Assembly (NCBI GenBank): GCA_021815805.1
Contig: JAKAZQ010000004.1
Location: 1-64,000, forward strand
Direction of reading: 5' to 3'
Length of the DNA stretch: 64,000 nucleotides
DNA from: Pseudomonadota bacterium
GTDB taxonomy: Bacteria > Pseudomonadota > Gammaproteobacteria > Burkholderiales > Burkholderiaceae_C
The notes beneath the pieces were generated by a model. The model was not told the origin of the DNA. It searched no databases and worked only from the letters and a program-made list of their open reading frames with translations. The position numbers and the translations under genes were made by a program. Positions 37,588-61,247 of this stretch are shown here, piece by piece (the stretch's first letter is position 1; each line of letters opens with the position of its first letter).

Positions 37588-38784
37588 TTACTTGGCCAGC
37601 GGGCAGCCGTAGTTGGCGATCGGACCGAAGGCGTCCGGCCCGGGGATCTTCTGCACGATGTTGTACAGGTCCCATTCGCCCTTCGATTCCGCCGGGGTCT
37701 TGACCTGGGCGAGGTACATGTCGTGCACCATCACGCCGTTGGGAGCCAGGTAGCCACCGTGGGTGAACATGTCGTTGACCTTCATCTTGTGCAACTCGGC
37801 CATGACCTTGTCACCGTTGGTCGTCCCGGCCGCCTTCACCGCCTTCAGATAGGTCATGGTCGCGGAGTAGTCGGCAGCCTGCACGAAGGTCGGCATGACG
37901 TGCATCTGCTTGTAGAAGCGTTGCGCCCAGGCGCGCGATTGGGGATTCTGGTTCCAGTACCACGGCGTGGTCAGGTACAGGCCCTGCGCCGACTGCAGGC
38001 CGATGCTGTGGATATCCGTGATGAACAGAAGCAGCCCGGCCAGCTTCATGGTCTTCGTGATGCCGAACTGCGTGGCCTGCTTGATCGAGTTCACCGAGTC
38101 GCCGCCGGCGTTCGCCAGGCCCAGCACCTGCGCCTTGGACGCCTGCGCCTGCAGCAGGTAGGACGAGAAGTCGGCCGAGGCCAGCGGGGCGTAGACCTGG
38201 CCCAGCACCTTGCCGCCATTCGCCTCGACGACCTTCGAGGCGTCAGCCTGCAGCGCCTTGCCGAAAGCGTAGTCGGCGGTCAGGAAATACCAGGTCTTGC
38301 CGCCCTTCTGCACGATCGCCTTTCCGGTTCCACGCGCCAGTGCGGTCGTGTTGTACGCGTACATGTCGGTGTACGGCGTGCACTCCTTGCCGACGATGGT
38401 CGAGGCACCGCCGCCGATGTCGATGAAGGGCTTCTTGTAGCTCGCCGCCACGCGCTCCATGGCCAGCGCGGTGGCGCTGTTGGTGCCGGAGATCAGCATG
38501 TCGGCGCCGTCCTGGCTGAAGAACTCCTTGGCCTTGCCGGCTGCCAGGTCGGCCTTGTTCTGGTGATCGAAGGACATCAACTCGACCTTGCGCCCCAGCA
38601 CCTTGCCGCCGAAGTCGTGGATGGCCATCTTGATGGCCGCCACGCCGCCGGCGCCGTCGATCGCCGAGTACACGCCGGACATGTCGGTGATGAAAGCAAT
38701 CTTGACCGGTGCGGCGGCCTGCGCGGTGGCGGCACTCAAGGCCAGCGCCGCAGCCACGGCGATGCTCAGTCGGTTCAGCTTCAT
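37588..38784 (-). CDS. ABC transporter substrate-binding protein (HAAT family)
   Basis: Signal peptide then VKIAFITDMSGVYSAIDGAGGVAAIKMAIHDFGGKVLG. Confidence 0.88.
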   Translation of the reverse strand: MKLNRLSIAVAAALALSAATAQAAAPVKIAFITDMSGVYSAIDGAGGVAAIKMAIHDFGGKVLGRKVELMSFDHQNKADLAAGKAKEFFSQDGADMLISGTNSATALAMERVAASYKKPFIDIGGGASTIVGKECTPYTDMYAYNTTALARGTGKAIVQKGGKTWYFLTADYAFGKALQADASKVVEANGGKVLGQVYAPLASADFSSYLLQAQASKAQVLGLANAGGDSVNSIKQATQFGITKTMKLAGLLLFITDIHSIGLQSAQGLYLTTPWYWNQNPQSRAWAQRFYKQMHVMPTFVQAADYSATMTYLKAVKAAGTTNGDKVMAELHKMKVNDMFTHGGYLAPNGVMVHDMYLAQVKTPAESKGEWDLYNIVQKIPGPDAFGPIANYGCPLAK

Positions 38785-52448: not shown

Positions 52449-55400
52449 TCACCCGATGCTCATGAGGCTGGCGTTGCCGCCGGCCGCCGCGGTGTTCACG
52501 CTGACGGACTTTTCGTGCAACAGCAGTTCCAGCGGATATTCCGATTGTTTCAGGCCGTCGCTGGCCAGCGCATACACGCTGACCACCGCATGCTCGAAGC
52601 GCGTCAACTCCGTCTGCAGCGCCAGCAGCCCCGCCGGATCGCCCTGGTACAGCGCGGCATCGGGCTGATCCGCGTCGACGAAGGCACGCACCTGCGTGCG
52701 CAGCGACGCCGGAACCAGCGCCAGCGCGGCTTCGGCGTGGGCTCCGCTGAGCAACGCGACATTGCCGCTGGCCAGCGCCGCGGCCGCCTGGCGCAGCAAG
52801 GCCTCGCGGCTCGCCGCGCGGCACAGCAGGCGCCCGCGCGGCAGCAGCGCATACTGGTTGTGCTCGCCCACGGGTCCGGGCAGCGTGACCGGCTCCAGGC
52901 TCGGCGCCTGAACCGCATAGGCCTCCAGCGCCGCGGTGTCGAGTCCATGCTCGCGCAGCGCCTCGATCAGGGTGCGCAGCGCCTGGGGCGCCGGCGCGCA
53001 GGGCAGGAACGGCGCACACGCCGGCGCGATCAGGCGCCGCAGGTACAGCGGCCCGCCGGCCTTCGGCCCCGTCCCCGATCGACCGTGACCACCAAACGGC
53101 TGCACGCCCACCACGGCGCCGATGATGTTGCGGTTGACGTAGATGTTGCCGGCGTGGATGCGCGACGTCACCTGCGCGATGCTTTCGTCGATGCGGCTGT
53201 GGATGCCGAAGGTCAGCGCGTAGCCGAGAGCGTTGACCGCATCCAGCGTGGCTTCGAGTTCGCCTGTGCGATATCGCAGCACGTGCAACACCGGCCCGAA
53301 TACCTCTCGGCCTAGCACATCGATCGACGGGATCTCGATCAGGGTCGGCGCGACAAAGCAGCCGTGCCGTGCGTCGTCGGGCAGCGCGGGCGCGTGCACG
53401 GGAAAACCGCGTGCGCGCAAGGCCTCCACATGCGCGACGATGGTGTCGCGCGCCTCGGCGCTGATCACCGGACCGATGTCGCTGGCCAGCCGATCCGGCC
53501 GGCCGATGCACAGTTCGTTCATCGCGCCGCGCAGCATCTCCAGCAGGCGCTCGGCGACGTCCTCCTGCACCAGCAGGATGCGCAGTGCCGAGCAGCGCTG
53601 TCCGGCGGAATCGAAGGCCGACGCCACGATGTCGGCCACCGCCTGCTCGGGCAATGCCGACGAATCGACGACCATGGCGTTCTGGCCGCCCGTCTCGGCG
53701 ATCAGCGGAATCGGCAGGCCATGCGCATCCAGGCGACCCGCGAGCTGCGCCTGGATCAGGCGCGCCACCTCGGTGGAACCGGTGAACAACACGCCGCGCA
53801 CCCGCGCATCGGCGACCAGCGCGCTGCCCACCTTTCCATCCCCCGGCAGCAGTTGCACCGCGCCGTGCGGCAAGCCGGCCTCGAGCAGGATGTTCACCGC
53901 CGCATAGGCGATCAGCGGCGTCTGCTCGGCCGGCTTGGCCAGCACCACGTTGCCGGCGGCCAACGCCGCCGCCACCTGCCCCATGAAGATGGCCAGCGGA
54001 AAATTCCACGGGCTGATGGCCACCACCGGGCCGAGCGGGCGGTGCTCGGTATTGTGGAAATGCTGCGTCACCTGGGCCGCGTAGTAGCGCAGGAAGTCCA
54101 CCGCCTCGCGCACCTCGCCGATGGCCGACGGCAGCGAGCGCCCGGCCTCGCGCACCACCAGGCCGACCAGGCGCGGCAGCCGCTCCTCGAGCAGGTCGGC
54201 GGCGCGCAGCAGGATGGCGGCGCGGTCGACCGGCGGCGTGGCCTGCCACACGGGCGCCTCCGCCAGGGCCTCGCCGACGGCGCGGGCGCACAGCTCGGGC
54301 GTGGCCTCGTGCACCGAGCCGACGATGTCGCGCAGATCGGCCGGGTTGAGCGCCGCACGCGCGACGGCCTCGTGTTCGCCGCTGCCGAGGATCGGACGCG
54401 CCACCCAGGTCGTGTCGATGCCTGCCAGGCCGGCCGCGGCCAGCGCGCCCAGTCGCTGCTCGTTGCTGAGGTCGAGCCCGCTCGAATTGGCGCGCTGCGC
54501 GCCGTACAGCGCCGCCGGCAGCGCGATCTTCGGGTGCGGTGCGCCCAGCGGCTGCACGGCGCGGCAGAGTTCCACCGGATCCGCGACGATCTCGTCCAGG
54601 TCGAGGTTCGGATCGTTGATCTTGTGCACAAAGGAGGTGTTCGCGCCGTTCTCCAGCAGGCGGCGCACCAGGTAGGCCAGCAGCGTCTCGTGCGTGCCCA
54701 CCGGCGCATAGATGCGGCACGGCCGGCGCATGCCCTCGGCGGATACCACCTCCTCGTACAGCGGCTCGCCCATGCCGTGCAGGCACTGGAATTCGTACTG
54801 CCCGACGTAGAAGTTGTCACCGGCCATCGCATGGATCGCGGCCACCGTGTGCGCGTTGTGGGTCGCGAACTGAGGGAACACGGCCTGCGCAGCACCCAGC
54901 AGCTTGCGCGCGCAGGCGAGGTACGACACATCGGTGTGGCTCTTGCGCGTGAACACCGGAAAGCCCTCGAGGCCGTCGAGCTGCGCGCGCTTGATCTCGG
55001 AATCCCAGTACGCGCCCTTGACCAGGCGCACCATGATGCGGCGACGCGAGCGCTGCGCCAGGTCGATCAGAAAGTCGAGCACGAACGGGGCGCGCTTCTG
55101 GTAGGCCTGCACCACGAAGCCGATGCCGTTCCAGCCCTGCAGCGCGGGGTCGAAACACAGGCTTTCCAGCAGGTCCAGCGAAATCTCGAGGCGGTCGGCC
55201 TCCTCGGCGTCGATGTTCAGGCCGATGTCGTAGCGCCTGGCCAGCTGCGCGAGGCGGGTCAGGCGCGGCAGCAGTTCCTGCATCACGCGATGCCGCTGCG
55301 CCCGGCTGTACCGGGGATGCAGCGCCGACAGCTTGATGGAAATCCCCGGCCCCTCGTAGATGCCGCGGCGCTGCGAGGATTTGCCGATGGCGTGGATGGC

Positions 55401-56297
55401 CTGTTCGTAATCGCGCAGATAGCGCTGCGCGTCGCGCGCGGTGAGCGCGGCCTCGCCCAGCATGTCGTAGGAATGCCGGAAGCCCCTGGCCTCCCACTTG
55501 CGGCTGTTGGCCAGCGCGTCGGCGATGGTCTGGCCCAGCACGAACTGTTCGCCCATCAGGCGCATCGCGATGTTCACGCTGCCCCGCACCACCGGCTCTC
55601 CGCCACGCGCGACCAGGCGCGTGAGCATCGACGACAGCGTGGCCTCGCTGCTCGTGGCCACCAGGCGTCCGGTCAGCAGCAGGCCCCAGGTGGCGGCGTT
55701 GAGGAACAGCGAGCGCCCGCCGCCGAGATGGCTCTGCCAGTCGCCGGCGCCGATCTTGTCGCGGATCAGCGCATCGCGGGTCGCCGTGTCGGGGATGCGC
55801 AGCAGCGCCTCGGCCAGGCACATCAGCGCGATGCCCTCCTGGCTCGACAGGGCGTATTCCTGCAGCAGGGTCTCCACCACGCCGCGCGTGCGCTTGGAGC
55901 GCAGTTTCAGCGCCAGTTCACGCGCCGTGCGCTGCACCTCGTCGCGCAAACCCGCGGGCAGTTCGGCCTGCGCCAGCAAGGCCGGCACGCACTCGGCCTC
56001 GGGGCGCCGGTAGGCCGCGGTGATGGCGGCGCGCAGCACGGTCTGCGGTTGCACCTCCTGCGCCAGCTCGAGAAACGGCACCAGCGGGGCATCGTGCGGC
56101 CGAGGTTGCTCCATTGGTTGCACTTCTTCATCGTGCTCACGGTCAGGAACAATTTCGCCCCGCTCCAGGCGCTCCAAGCCCTGGATGATCCATTGCTTGA
56201 CCAGGAAATGCGAGGTTCGGCCCTGCGCCTCGGCGGCCGTCTTGATGCGCGTGCGCACCTGGTCGTCCAGTTTCACGCCGATGGTCGTCACGCTCAT
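52449..56297 (-). CDS. putA: Trifunctional PutA (RHH repressor, proline dehydrogenase, P5C dehydrogenase)
   Basis: N-terminal RHH MSVTTIGVKLDDQVRTRIKTAAEAQGRTSHFLVKQ; PRODH YEGPGISIKLSALHPRY; ALDH GPVVAISPWNFPLAIFMGQ. Confidence 0.97.
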   Translation of the reverse strand: MSVTTIGVKLDDQVRTRIKTAAEAQGRTSHFLVKQWIIQGLERLERGEIVPDREHDEEVQPMEQPRPHDAPLVPFLELAQEVQPQTVLRAAITAAYRRPEAECVPALLAQAELPAGLRDEVQRTARELALKLRSKRTRGVVETLLQEYALSSQEGIALMCLAEALLRIPDTATRDALIRDKIGAGDWQSHLGGGRSLFLNAATWGLLLTGRLVATSSEATLSSMLTRLVARGGEPVVRGSVNIAMRLMGEQFVLGQTIADALANSRKWEARGFRHSYDMLGEAALTARDAQRYLRDYEQAIHAIGKSSQRRGIYEGPGISIKLSALHPRYSRAQRHRVMQELLPRLTRLAQLARRYDIGLNIDAEEADRLEISLDLLESLCFDPALQGWNGIGFVVQAYQKRAPFVLDFLIDLAQRSRRRIMVRLVKGAYWDSEIKRAQLDGLEGFPVFTRKSHTDVSYLACARKLLGAAQAVFPQFATHNAHTVAAIHAMAGDNFYVGQYEFQCLHGMGEPLYEEVVSAEGMRRPCRIYAPVGTHETLLAYLVRRLLENGANTSFVHKINDPNLDLDEIVADPVELCRAVQPLGAPHPKIALPAALYGAQRANSSGLDLSNEQRLGALAAAGLAGIDTTWVARPILGSGEHEAVARAALNPADLRDIVGSVHEATPELCARAVGEALAEAPVWQATPPVDRAAILLRAADLLEERLPRLVGLVVREAGRSLPSAIGEVREAVDFLRYYAAQVTQHFHNTEHRPLGPVVAISPWNFPLAIFMGQVAAALAAGNVVLAKPAEQTPLIAYAAVNILLEAGLPHGAVQLLPGDGKVGSALVADARVRGVLFTGSTEVARLIQAQLAGRLDAHGLPIPLIAETGGQNAMVVDSSALPEQAVADIVASAFDSAGQRCSALRILLVQEDVAERLLEMLRGAMNELCIGRPDRLASDIGPVISAEARDTIVAHVEALRARGFPVHAPALPDDARHGCFVAPTLIEIPSIDVLGREVFGPVLHVLRYRTGELEATLDAVNALGYALTFGIHSRIDESIAQVTSRIHAGNIYVNRNIIGAVVGVQPFGGHGRSGTGPKAGGPLYLRRLIAPACAPFLPCAPAPQALRTLIEALREHGLDTAALEAYAVQAPSLEPVTLPGPVGEHNQYALLPRGRLLCRAASREALLRQAAAALASGNVALLSGAHAEAALALVPASLRTQVRAFVDADQPDAALYQGDPAGLLALQTELTRFEHAVVSVYALASDGLKQSEYPLELLLHEKSVSVNTAAAGGNASLMSIG

Positions 56298-56340
56298 GGA
56301 ATTCCCTTATGGATTAGATATGTATGCGAACATGGCGATG

Positions 56341-56459
56341 GTTGCACCACCACCGCGAGAAGTAAAGCACTGCTCGTCTCGTGGATACAACTTTTCGCAC
56401 CCCTGGGGTGTAACCCTGATGCAGCGACAGGTGCAACCCGTTATGGTCCCCACTGCAAC
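56341..56459. promoter_or_regulatory. Three GTTGCA hexamers, candidate PutA operators
   Basis: GTTGCA at 56341-56346; reverse complement TGCAAC at 56432-56437 and 56454-56459. Confidence 0.6.
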
Positions 56460-56569
56460 CTTTCTCGACCCTTCGCGCACCGGCAGCGGTGCGTGGCCGA
56501 GGCAACGGCCGACGACGGGGCGCCGCACGCGCCCCGCCCCGATCCCCTCTTCTCTTTGCAGGCGAGACC

Positions 56570-57712
56570 ATGACGCACAAGTATTGCAGGACGGCTTTGT
56601 TCAGTCTGATGGCGGCAGCCCTGGGCGCCGGCGCGGCGCACGCCGCCACGCCAATCACCATCGGCGTGCAGGCGCCGATCACCGGCCAGTACGCCAACGA
56701 GGGCCAGGGCATCGCGAATGCCGTGAAGCTGCTGGTCAAGCAGCAGAACGCCGAGGGCGGGCTGCTCGGACACCCGCTCAAGGTGGAGGTATGCGACGAC
56801 CAGGGCGAGGCCGCGCCGGCTGCGATCTGCGCGCGTCAACTGGTCAACGACGGCGTGCTGGCCGTGATCGGCAGCTACACCAGCGGCGCCGCGCTGGCCG
56901 CGCAGCCGATCTATGCCCGCGCCAACGTGATCCAGACCTCCGACGGCACCAGCGACCAGCTGACCGCACGCGGCTACAAGACCTTTTTCCGCAACGCGCC
57001 GCCGAACAGCGCCGAGGCGGTGTTCACCGCCGGCTACTTCAAGGCCATGGGCTATCGGCGCGTGGCGGTCGTCACCGACCACTCGAGTTTTTCCACCGGC
57101 CTGGCCAACGCGGTGATCGCCGACGCGAAAAAGGCCGGCATCAAGATCATCGACAAGGCCTTCATCAGCGCCGGATCGCAGAACTACACCCCGGTGCTGA
57201 CCAAGTTGAAGGCCGAGCATCCGCAAGTCGTGTACTTCTCCGGCTACTACACCGATGGCGGCCTCATCAAGGCGCAGATGGCCCAGCTCGGCATGAAGGC
57301 CACGTTCGTCGGCGGTGACGCCAACCAGAACGTGGCCTTCGCGAAAATCGCCGGCAGCGCGGCGAGCGGCGCCGTCATCATCAACGTGCCCGCGCCCGAG
57401 GACCTGCCCTACCCGGCGGCCAAGCAGTTCCTCGAGCAGTTCCAGAAGGCCTACGGGCATCAGCCGCCCAGCATCTTCACGCTGACCAACGCCGACGGCC
57501 TGCGCGCGGTGCTGTACACCGCCGAGCAGGTCAAGAGCGTGAAGCCGGCCGTGCTGATCCCGGCGCTGCACAAGCTGCGCGACTTCCACGGCCTGACCGG
57601 CACGTTCTCGTGGAACGCCGTGGGTGAACGCACCGGAAGCCCGTACGTGGCCTTCGAGGTGACGGCCAGCGGCGCCTACAAGATCACCTATCCGGCCGCC
57701 GCCGCCAAGTAA
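56570..57712 (+). CDS. Liv-type ABC transporter substrate-binding protein
   Basis: Signal peptide; ITIGVQAPITGQYANEGQGIANAVKLLVKQQNAEGGLLGHPLKVEVCDDQGEA. Confidence 0.93.
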   Translation: MTHKYCRTALFSLMAAALGAGAAHAATPITIGVQAPITGQYANEGQGIANAVKLLVKQQNAEGGLLGHPLKVEVCDDQGEAAPAAICARQLVNDGVLAVIGSYTSGAALAAQPIYARANVIQTSDGTSDQLTARGYKTFFRNAPPNSAEAVFTAGYFKAMGYRRVAVVTDHSSFSTGLANAVIADAKKAGIKIIDKAFISAGSQNYTPVLTKLKAEHPQVVYFSGYYTDGGLIKAQMAQLGMKATFVGGDANQNVAFAKIAGSAASGAVIINVPAPEDLPYPAAKQFLEQFQKAYGHQPPSIFTLTNADGLRAVLYTAEQVKSVKPAVLIPALHKLRDFHGLTGTFSWNAVGERTGSPYVAFEVTASGAYKITYPAAAAK

Positions 57713-57824
57713 GCCCGGTCGAGGCGCCCGCCGGTCCGGCGTGGCGCCGCGCCGACCCGGCGCCGCCACGCGCGCGCCGAGTCCGCGCGGCGCGCACGGC
57801 CGGCGCATCGCAGGAGAACCATCC

Positions 57825-58730
57825 ATGCTGAGCACCGTGCTGCAGCAGCTCGTCAACGGTCTGACCGTGGGCGGGATCTATGCGCTCATCGCCCTGGGCT
57901 ACACCATGGTCTACGGGGTGCTGCGCCTGATCAACTTCGCCCATGGCGATCTCTGCATCTTCGGGGCCTACATCGGTCTCGTCGCGCTGGGCTCGGGGGC
58001 GGGCAGCGGACGATCCCATCTGCTGCTGCTCGGCGCCGCGTTCCTGCTCGCGGCGCTGGCGGTCGGGGCCGCCGGAATGCTGCTGGAGTTCACCGCCTAT
58101 CGCCCGTTGCGACGCGCCGATCGCCTGTCGGCGGTGGTATCGGCGCTCGGCGCATCGCTGTTCATCGAAAACGGCATCATGCTGATCTGGGGCCCGCAGC
58201 TGCGCGTGTTTCCGAGTCATCTGCTGCCGCACGCCGCCTGGAACCTGGGCGGCGCCCGCATCGACCTCGTGCAGTTGCTGATCATCGGCGGCTCCGCGCT
58301 GCTCATGGGCGTGCTGTACTGGTTCGTGCATCACACCCGCTACGGCACCGCGATGCGCGCCGCGGCGAGCGACCAGGATGCGGCGCGCCTGATGGGCATC
58401 AACGTCAACCGCGTGATCGCCAGCGTGTTCGTGCTGGGCCCGGCGATCGGCGCGGTGGGCGGCCTGTTCATCGGCCTGTACTACCGCCAGGTCTACTTCA
58501 CGATGGGCTGGACCTACGGCCTCAACGCGTTCATCGCCGCCATCCTGGGGGGCATCGGCAACATCCCCGGCGCGATGCTCGGCGGCGTGCTGCTGGGCCT
58601 GTTCAACGCCTTCGCCGCCGGCTTCATCTCCAGTTCCTGGCAGGGGGCGATCACCTTTGCGCTGCTGATCGGCATCCTGCTGCTGCGCCCCACCGGGCTG
58701 CTCGGCGAGCGCGTCGCGGAGAAAGTCTGA
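57825..58730 (+). CDS. livH: ABC permease LivH
   Basis: LQQLVNGLTVGGIYALIALGYTMVYGVLRLINFAHGD. Confidence 0.93.
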   Translation: MLSTVLQQLVNGLTVGGIYALIALGYTMVYGVLRLINFAHGDLCIFGAYIGLVALGSGAGSGRSHLLLLGAAFLLAALAVGAAGMLLEFTAYRPLRRADRLSAVVSALGASLFIENGIMLIWGPQLRVFPSHLLPHAAWNLGGARIDLVQLLIIGGSALLMGVLYWFVHHTRYGTAMRAAASDQDAARLMGINVNRVIASVFVLGPAIGAVGGLFIGLYYRQVYFTMGWTYGLNAFIAAILGGIGNIPGAMLGGVLLGLFNAFAAGFISSSWQGAITFALLIGILLLRPTGLLGERVAEKV

Positions 58731-59677
58731 TGAAAAGCCTGCTCGATTGGCTCTCCCGCCCGTGGGTCGGCGGCCTGCTGTGGCTGGCCGGGCTCGGCGT
58801 CCCGCTGCTGCTCGACCAGACCTGGGTGTTCATCGCCGCGCTGTTCGCGGTCTACGCGATCGTCGCCCTCAGCCAGGACGTGGTGCTCGGACGCGCCGGC
58901 ATGTTCGACATGGGGCATGCCGTGTACTTCGGCGTCGGGGCCTACGTCACGGCCATCCTGAACACGGCCCATGGCTGGCCGATCCTGCTCACCTGGCCGC
59001 TCGCGGTGCTCGCCGCGGCGCTTGCCGGGGCGCTCATCGCCGCGCCGATCGCACGCCTGCGCGGCGACTACCTGCTGGTCGCCACGATCGGCTTCAACGC
59101 CATTTTCATCCTCGCGCTGAACAACAACCTGGGCCACGTCACCGGCGGCGCCGACGGGCTGTTCGGCATCGGCGTGCCGGCGCTGGGCGGGCTCCAGGCA
59201 TCCAGCCAGAACGCCCAGTTCTGGCTCGACTGGGTCGCCTTCGCGGCGGTGCTGCTGCTGATCCGCAATCTCGACCGCTCGCATCTCGGGCGCACCTTCC
59301 ACTACATCAAGCACGACCAGCTCGCCGCCACCACGATGGGCGTGGACACGCGCAAGTACCGCGTGCTGGCCTTCGCCCTCGGCGCGGCGCTGGCCGGTTT
59401 CGGCGGCACGCTGTTCGCCACGCTGATGGCCGCGGTCAGCCCCGGCGCGTTCGTGTTCACGGAATCGGTCACGCTGTTCGCCATCGTGCTGGTGGGCGGC
59501 CAGGGCTCGATTCCCGGCGTTCTGCTGGGCACCGCGCTGATGTTCGTCGTACCCCAGGTGTTCCGGGGCTTCGCCGAGTACCGCTATTTCGTGTTCGGCA
59601 TCGCCATGGTGCTGATCATGGTGCTGCGCCCGCAGGGCATCTGGCCGCGGGCTCTGCGCAGGGAGGCCGCGCGATGA
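58730..59677 (+). CDS. livM: ABC permease LivM
   Basis: GRAGMFDMGHAVYFGVGAYVTAIL; 1-bp overlap with livH. Confidence 0.92.
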   Translation: MKSLLDWLSRPWVGGLLWLAGLGVPLLLDQTWVFIAALFAVYAIVALSQDVVLGRAGMFDMGHAVYFGVGAYVTAILNTAHGWPILLTWPLAVLAAALAGALIAAPIARLRGDYLLVATIGFNAIFILALNNNLGHVTGGADGLFGIGVPALGGLQASSQNAQFWLDWVAFAAVLLLIRNLDRSHLGRTFHYIKHDQLAATTMGVDTRKYRVLAFALGAALAGFGGTLFATLMAAVSPGAFVFTESVTLFAIVLVGGQGSIPGVLLGTALMFVVPQVFRGFAEYRYFVFGIAMVLIMVLRPQGIWPRALRREAAR

Positions 59678-60492
59678 GCACCCCACCGAACCCGCAAGCG
59701 GCTGCGCCGGCGCAAGAGATGCTGGTGCTGGACGGCGTCGGCGTGCGCTTCGGCGGCCTGAAGGCCGTCGATGCGCTGAGCTTCGCGGTCGGCCAGGCCC
59801 AGGTGGTCGGACTCATCGGCCCGAATGGCGCCGGCAAGACCACGGCCTTCAACCTGATCACCGGGGTCTACAAGCCGAGCGAGGGGCGCGTGCGCTTCGC
59901 CGGCCGCGACATCACCGCCTGGGCCCCCCATCGCATCGCGCGCATCGGCATCTTCCGTACCTTCCAGACCATCCGCCTGTTCCAGGGTCAGAGCGTGCTG
60001 AGCAACGTGCTGGCGGGCATGCACCTGCGCACGCGCCAGCAATGGTGGCAGGGGCTGCTGGCCACGCCGGCGCAGCGTCGCGAGGAACGCGCGCTGCGTC
60101 ACGAAGTGCATGCGCTGCTCGAGCGACTTCGCCTGGACCACCTGGCGTACGAGGACGTGGCCTCCCTGCCCTACGGCGTGCAGCGCCGGGTCGAGCTGGC
60201 GCGCGCGCTGATCGCCAAGCCGCGCCTGCTCATCCTCGACGAACCCGCGGCAGGCCTCAACGACCAGGAGTCGGCAGAGCTCAACCGCACCATCCTCGAG
60301 GTGCGCGACCAGGGCATCAGCGTGCTGCTGGTCGAGCACGACATGAACGTGGTGATGAACGTCACCGATCACATCGTGTGCATCAACTTCGGGCGCAAGA
60401 TCGCCGAGGGCACGCCGGAGCAAATTCGCAACCATCCCGACGTCATCGAGGCCTACCTCGGCAAGGAAGACGACGACGAGGAGGCCGCATGA
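59674..60492 (+). CDS. livG: ABC ATP-binding protein LivG
   Basis: GPNGAGKTTAFNLITGVYKPSEG...LSYGVQRRVELARAL-type signature. Confidence 0.95.
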   Translation: MSTPPNPQAAAPAQEMLVLDGVGVRFGGLKAVDALSFAVGQAQVVGLIGPNGAGKTTAFNLITGVYKPSEGRVRFAGRDITAWAPHRIARIGIFRTFQTIRLFQGQSVLSNVLAGMHLRTRQQWWQGLLATPAQRREERALRHEVHALLERLRLDHLAYEDVASLPYGVQRRVELARALIAKPRLLILDEPAAGLNDQESAELNRTILEVRDQGISVLLVEHDMNVVMNVTDHIVCINFGRKIAEGTPEQIRNHPDVIEAYLGKEDDDEEAA

Positions 60493-61247
60493 CACTGCTG
60501 GAAGTCCGAGACCTCGACGTGCGCTACGGCCACATCCAGGCCCTGAAGGGCGTGAGCCTGGAAGTCGCCGAAGGCGAGATCGTCGCGCTGCTGGGCGCCA
60601 ACGGCGCCGGCAAGACGACGCTGATGCGCAGCATCAGCGGCCTGCTGCGAGCGCACGCCGGCGAGGTGCGACTGCGCGGCGCGCCGATCCAGCGCACCGC
60701 AGCCGACGCCATCGTGCGCCTGGGCATCTCGCAGGTGCCCGAGGGGCGCCGCGTGTTTCCCACCCTGAGCGTGGCCGAGAACCTGCGCCTGGGCGCCTAC
60801 ACGCGAGCGGCGGCCGAGGCGGCGCAGACGCTGCAGCAGGTGTGGAGCATGTTCCCGCGCCTGCTCGAGCGCCGCGAACAGCTGGCCGGCACGCTGTCCG
60901 GCGGCGAACAGCAGATGCTCGCGATCGGACGCGCGCTGATGGCGCGCCCGAAGCTGCTGCTGCTCGACGAGCCCAGCCTGGGCCTGGCGCCGATCATCGT
61001 GCGGGACATCTTCCGCTCGCTGCACCGGATCCGCGAGCGGGGCATGACCGTGCTGCTGGTCGAGCAGAACGCGCGCATGGCCCTCAAGCTCGCCGACCGC
61101 GGATACGTGCTGGAGACCGGGCGTATCCGCCTCGAGGGCCCCGCACGCCAACTGCTGGCATCGCCCGAGGTGCAGGCCAGCTATCTCGGCCACGGCCACG
61201 CGGCGCCGCCGGCGGCCGCGCCCGATGGCGCCGCGGCGCCGGGCTGA
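60489..61247 (+). CDS. livF: ABC ATP-binding protein LivF
   Basis: GANGAGKTTLMRSISGL; LSGGEQQMLAIGRALMARPKLLLLDEPSLGLAPIIV. Confidence 0.95.
   Translation: MTLLEVRDLDVRYGHIQALKGVSLEVAEGEIVALLGANGAGKTTLMRSISGLLRAHAGEVRLRGAPIQRTAADAIVRLGISQVPEGRRVFPTLSVAENLRLGAYTRAAAEAAQTLQQVWSMFPRLLERREQLAGTLSGGEQQMLAIGRALMARPKLLLLDEPSLGLAPIIVRDIFRSLHRIRERGMTVLLVEQNARMALKLADRGYVLETGRIRLEGPARQLLASPEVQASYLGHGHAAPPAAAPDGAAAPG

Follow-up and report, generated by a model that had tools for sequence, protein, structure and literature searches.

Enterobacterial PutA acts as a repressor of putA and putP, and it moves from the DNA to the membrane once proline has reduced its flavin (PMC5293562). On the transport side, Atu2422 of Agrobacterium contributes to the uptake of GABA, proline, alanine and valine, with proline reported as a substrate or an antagonist (PMC5924552), and the N-I importer of Anabaena takes proline, phenylalanine, leucine, glycine and other amino acids (PMC4500139). 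In our literature searches, neither a pairing of PutA with GTTGCA nor one with Liv-type proline transport had a direct precedent, and no report of PutA control of Atu2422 was found.

We analyzed a stretch of 64,000 nucleotides (the window) from a Thiomonas genome (Burkholderiaceae in GTDB), whose near matches are Thiomonas sp. FB-6, T. delicata and T. bhubaneswarensis. Thiomonas is an acid-mine bacterium. In the window, putA is divergent from a five-gene operon of the HAAT/Liv type, K-H-M-G-F (56570-61247). We consider it likely that the locus is a PutA-autorepressed divergon, in which an operator array controls both putA and K-H-M-G-F, a Liv-type ABC importer mainly for proline. A PutA-regulated divergent proline importer of the Liv type had been suggested by an earlier sequence-only reading, and the comparisons below lend support to that interpretation. 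The regulator and the transporter are each of a known type, and their pairing is new. The features of the locus are as follows.

52449-56297, minus strand: putA, trifunctional (RHH, proline dehydrogenase, P5C dehydrogenase and C-terminal domain), 1282 aa.
56340-56348, plus strand: PutA-type putative operator O1, GGTTGCACC, immediately upstream of putA; exact GTTGCA in 22/25 orthologous regions.
56361-56366, minus strand: putative putA -10 (TTTACT) within the conserved GAAGTAAAG element; promoter assigned from alignment conservation.
56386-56391, minus strand: degenerate putative operator GTTGTA, overlapping a possible putA -35 (TTGTAT).
56407-56415, minus strand: putative operator GGTTACACC, centre of the gap; GTTRYA here in 20/25 orthologs.
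56430-56438, minus strand: putative operator GGTTGCACC; kept in 7/25 orthologs, the closest clade.
56442-56447, plus strand: putative K-gene -10 (TATGGT); assigned from TATG(G/T)T in most orthologs.
56454-56459, minus strand: GTTGCA hexamer without conservation, found in this genome only among 25.
56570-57712, plus strand: substrate-binding protein (K), HAAT/Liv type; Pfam Peripla_BP_6, 192.9 bits; closest solved fold 3ip5 (Atu2422).
57825-58730, plus strand: LivH-like permease; PF02653; NF008011 below cut-off.
58730-59677, plus strand: LivM-like permease; PF02653.
59674-60492, plus strand: LivG-like ATPase; PF00005 and PF12399.
60492-61247, plus strand: LivF-like ATPase; PF00005; NF008626 below cut-off.

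The PutA sequence matched NF008772 over its full length with 1970.8 bits (cut-off 1750) and contains the Pfam domains Pro_dh, Pro_dh-DNA_bdg and Aldedh, together with a weak PutA_1st match (24.9 against 27), so that RHH, PRODH, P5CDH and C-terminal domains are found in one chain of a class of about 1300 aa. Residues 1-52 were aligned without gaps with the RHH structures of E. coli PutA, including 2gpe and 2rbf, and the domain also matched 2jxg and its sister entries; the RHH domain claimed earlier for this PutA is therefore present. Lys9 of the RHH domain, a residue important for DNA binding, is kept in Thiomonas PutA, where the segment GVKLDD is aligned with its counterpart in 2gpe; the chain 2ay0 has M in place of this Lys. 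The divergent operon encodes a binding protein, two BPD_transp_2 permeases and two ATPases, the composition of a HAAT/Liv importer. None of the five subunits reached the curated NCBIfam equivalog or subfamily cut-offs for E. coli-type Liv proteins (bits against cut-off: K, 167.9/477; H, 218.9/379; M, 202.2/366; G, 291.7/362; F, 274.2/441). A second Peripla_BP_6 binding protein is encoded in the window (37699-38709, minus strand, 341.7 bits), and the genome has 11 such matches.

The 272-bp gap between putA and K contains five GTTRYA hexamers. Three are the exact GTTGCA sites that had been reported previously (56341-56346, plus strand; 56432-56437 and 56454-56459, minus strand), and that count was too low, since two degenerate minus-strand hexamers, GTTACA (56409-56414) and GTTGTA (56386-56391), had been overlooked. 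On the minus strand, the four hexamer starts (56386, 56409, 56432 and 56454) are 23, 23 and 22 bp apart, and three of the five hexamers in the gap are extended to GGTTRYACC. In 5000 dinucleotide shuffles of the gap, GTTGCA occurred 0.16 times on average, which makes the previous chance expectation of 0.13 a fair one, and at least three copies were found in 10/5000 shuffles. Five GTTRYA hexamers, three GGTTRYACC 9-mers or a four-member array with 22-23-bp spacing were each found in 0/5000. The 9-mer occurs 36 times in the 3.1-Mb Thiomonas genome, and three of these fall inside 99 bp, which was reproduced by random placement in 4 of 200,000 trials. Note that GTTGCA by itself is not rare across the window, where 36 copies stand against an expectation of 30.5; what carries the signal is that the hexamers are clustered locally and that the cluster is conserved. 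Within the coding region of putA there are a further GGTTGCACC (56047-56055) and a GGTTGCA (56116-56122); several orthologs have GTTGCA at roughly these codons too, reflecting either coding constraint or further operators.

We aligned 25 Thiomonas regions between RHH-putA and K. Clustered GTTGCA-type sites between putA and the transporter gene are conserved in these relatives, and the individual GTTGCA sites differ in weight, one of the three not being conserved: the position at 56341 is nearly invariant (exact GTTGCA in 22/25), whereas 56432 is kept in 7/25 and 56454 is confined to this genome. At the centre position, 56409, GTTRYA is present in 20/25 regions and is an exact GTTGCA in several, which shows that the two degenerate letters are interchangeable. 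At least one GGTTRYACC was found in 25/25 regions and at least two in 21/25. When hexamers were ranked de novo by presence against expectation, with no motif as input, GTGCAA/GTTGCA and CTTTAC/GTAAAG came out on top, and the same group led after thinning to 18 regions with identities below 80%; CTTTAC/GTAAAG is probably the putA -10. A consensus promoter scan found nothing in the gap, and the promoters were placed from conservation only. The conserved sites lie over or beside the GAAGTAAAG element of putA and the TATGGT element on the K side, which is consistent with repression of both promoters.

The motif also follows the RHH domain beyond Thiomonas. In a sample from other genera of the family (11 putA with RHH and 9 without), GGTTRYA was found within 400 bp upstream of 8/11 RHH putA and 0/9 non-RHH putA (Fisher p = 0.0014, or 0.003 without G145, uncorrected for relatedness); the remaining 3/11 RHH putA have no GGTTRYA within these 400 bp. 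A divergent Lrp-like gene adjoins 23/30 non-RHH putA and 0/10 RHH putA. GGTTRYACC was absent from the 500 bp upstream of K in 6/6 loci where K is not beside RHH-putA, and one or two copies of plain GTTGCA were found upstream of K in three of these six. Because the motif tracks the RHH domain and GGTTRYACC is absent at K away from RHH-putA, PutA is the leading candidate for the motif-binding protein. Pattern matching for GGTTRYACC across the genome gave no second target, since nearly all of the other places examined lie within predicted ORFs; the only other close pair in the genome (G000:C47:12950-13021; 63 bp apart, same strand) is inside a long ORF. Two further observations may concern other regulators. 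A palindrome, AGGGTAAACCCT, is located about 60-110 bp upstream of RHH-putA, near PutA-type sites, in four putA upstream regions from other Burkholderiaceae genera (L098, L100, L101 and L102, the last reading AGGGTATTCCCT), and it may be the site of a second regulator. In the Thiomonas clade with non-RHH putA after the ABC operon (L034, L046, L051), K is preceded by a well-conserved region that bears no relation to its counterpart in the RHH clade, suggesting another regulator there.

The transporter operon is repeatedly linked to putA. The divergent K-H-M-G-F next to putA, described at first from this locus, is conserved in Thiomonas and in one further genus: RHH-putA with divergent K was found in 21/28 Thiomonas genomes, that is, in all 21 genomes with RHH-putA, although in one of them (G015) the contig ends after 38 codons of K. 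In four others (G003, G006, G020, G021), K-H-M-G-F is followed on the same strand by a non-RHH putA with 46% identity. K lies away from putA in two genomes (G001, G023), and the sole Thiomonas genome without K (G024) also lacks putA. In G013 (contig C3), the RHH-putA region is present in two copies (2441689-2445535 and 2578189-2582035, about 136 kb apart), in each of which putA is split at residue 833 between two frames; this genome also carries another, incomplete copy containing stops, as well as a distinct putA of the bifunctional type. Outside the genus, among 151 genomes of the family, a K ortholog was found only in G145 (75% K identity), where it is divergent from RHH-putA as in Thiomonas. 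A search of the order gave one distant match (44%), with no putA in its 3.6 kb of sequence, and a search of plasmids gave no match. PutP (TIGR02121) was above the cut-off in 0/28 Thiomonas genomes and in 4/14 control genomes, and the partner of putA in this divergon is not PutP. The earlier proposal that the importer replaces PutP accordingly stands for PutP itself and not for proline permeases in general, since AA_permease members, one of them strong, are present in this genome and other proline routes are possible.

The fold of K (model pLDDT 83) is nearest to that of Atu2422 (3ip5), and leucine binders follow closely; the Atu2422 match is barely better than that to the leucine binder 4n0q. 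Y103 of K is aligned with F77 of Atu2422 and D250 with D226, so that K has the pocket-narrowing aromatic residue at 77 and the Asp at 226 of the Atu2422 type. Among 16 aligned sequences, Y103 is invariant and D250 nearly so. The residue at position 77 is Leu in E. coli LivK and Val in the Brucella leucine binder, and the solved F77A mutant of Atu2422 (3ipc) has leucine bound. The ligand loop of K, which normally reads PxxT, contains an unusual D125 that is invariant in the orthologs (local model confidence 67-87), and because of this difference the specificity could depart from that of Atu2422. Genomic context and this pocket together suggest proline as the ligand.

Non-orthologous Liv cassettes are located directly downstream of RHH-putA in G068, G120 and G137, and in G176 another is just past the Lrp-like gene that lies upstream of putA. 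In the binding proteins of four putA-linked lineages, the pocket position that excludes leucine in Atu2422 is aromatic (Tyr, Phe, Tyr, Trp), compared with 6/28 background binding proteins, a small sample chosen by Pfam score in which five of the six belong to one GCWTS-type group, probably urea-type. It is possible, though we put it forward tentatively, that the put systems of Burkholderiaceae repeatedly recruited different Liv-type ABC importers, giving convergent proline-selective HAAT systems under PutA/PutR control in four arrangements: divergent from RHH-putA (Thiomonas, G145), ahead of a same-strand non-RHH putA (other Thiomonas), downstream of RHH-putA as non-orthologous cassettes (G068, G120, G137) and past an Lrp gene (G176).

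PutA might instead control both genes while the importer is a broad one for neutral or branched-chain amino acids, with proline as just one of several substrates, or has as its main ligand another compound entering the same pathway (alanine, GABA, hydroxyproline or a proline derivative). HAAT importers are often broad, as in the substrate ranges of N-I and Atu2422 given above, and the invariant D125 would be in keeping with another ligand. However, the operon is tied to putA in both of its arrangements, the aromatic residue at 77 argues against leucine as the main ligand, and the Liv equivalog cut-offs are not reached; we regard this alternative as rather unlikely. That PutA regulates only itself, the divergent operon sharing the gap by neighbourhood and being under other control, seems unlikely to us: the most conserved site, 56341, is on the putA side, and in other genera with RHH, putA has upstream sites without a divergent transporter, but on the K side 56409 and 56432 adjoin the conserved TATG(G/T)T element, and the divergent pair is kept in every Thiomonas genome with RHH-putA and in G145. 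It is very improbable that the hexamers are a chance cluster or the sites of another regulator, without PutA binding, since the cluster statistics, the conservation and the correlation with RHH outweigh the general frequency of GTTGCA in the window and the three RHH putA of other genera that lack the motif.

We thus favour the PutA-controlled divergon with an importer mainly for proline, against which count the genomes in which K is unlinked to putA, the RHH putA lacking the motif, the GTTGCA upstream of some K not beside RHH-putA, the narrow lead of Atu2422 over 4n0q and the unlike ligand loop. By analogy with known PutA biology, the RHH domain would bind the GGTTRYACC-type array over the putA and K-H-M-G-F promoters, and PutA would repress both when proline is scarce. 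Entering proline would reduce the flavin of PutA and send it to the membrane, so that repression would be lifted and the enzyme and the Liv-type importer would both be made. With proline as its main physiological substrate, the importer would fill the role of PutP in enterobacteria.

Operons of this kind are annotated as branched-chain amino-acid transporters. The regulator, sites, synteny and pocket described here point to proline, and many Liv operons linked to putA would then need to have their substrate assignments revised. Liv-type proline ABC transporters have reportedly been assigned by mutant-fitness work in Herbaspirillum and Azospirillum. The divergon would add an ABC importer to the PutP symporter as a target of PutA in its moonlighting role as a repressor, and GGTTRYACC is a concrete candidate for the PutA operator motif of Burkholderiaceae.

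Compared with known systems, the locus resembles the enterobacterial putA-putP divergon in having an RHH PutA divergent from a transporter gene and several GTTGCA-type hexamers between them, but the partner in Thiomonas is a five-gene Liv-type ABC importer and not the PutP sodium symporter, and the hexamers are extended to GGTTRYACC and phased at about 23 bp. With the Atu2422/Bra system of Agrobacterium it shares the closest solved fold (3ip5), the aromatic residue at 77 and the Asp at 226, although the identity is 27% and the D125 loop and F174 differ. N-I (NatABCDE) of Anabaena is likewise a HAAT importer mainly for proline and other hydrophobic amino acids (PMC4500139), but its genes are scattered over the genome and its specificity is broad. 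The five-subunit architecture is that of E. coli LIV-I/LS (LivJKHMGF), from which the Thiomonas operon is set apart by scores below the NCBIfam Liv cut-offs in all subunits and by the change of Leu77 to Tyr in the pocket, so that neither the scores nor the Leu-accepting pocket of an E. coli-type branched-chain LIV system is found here.
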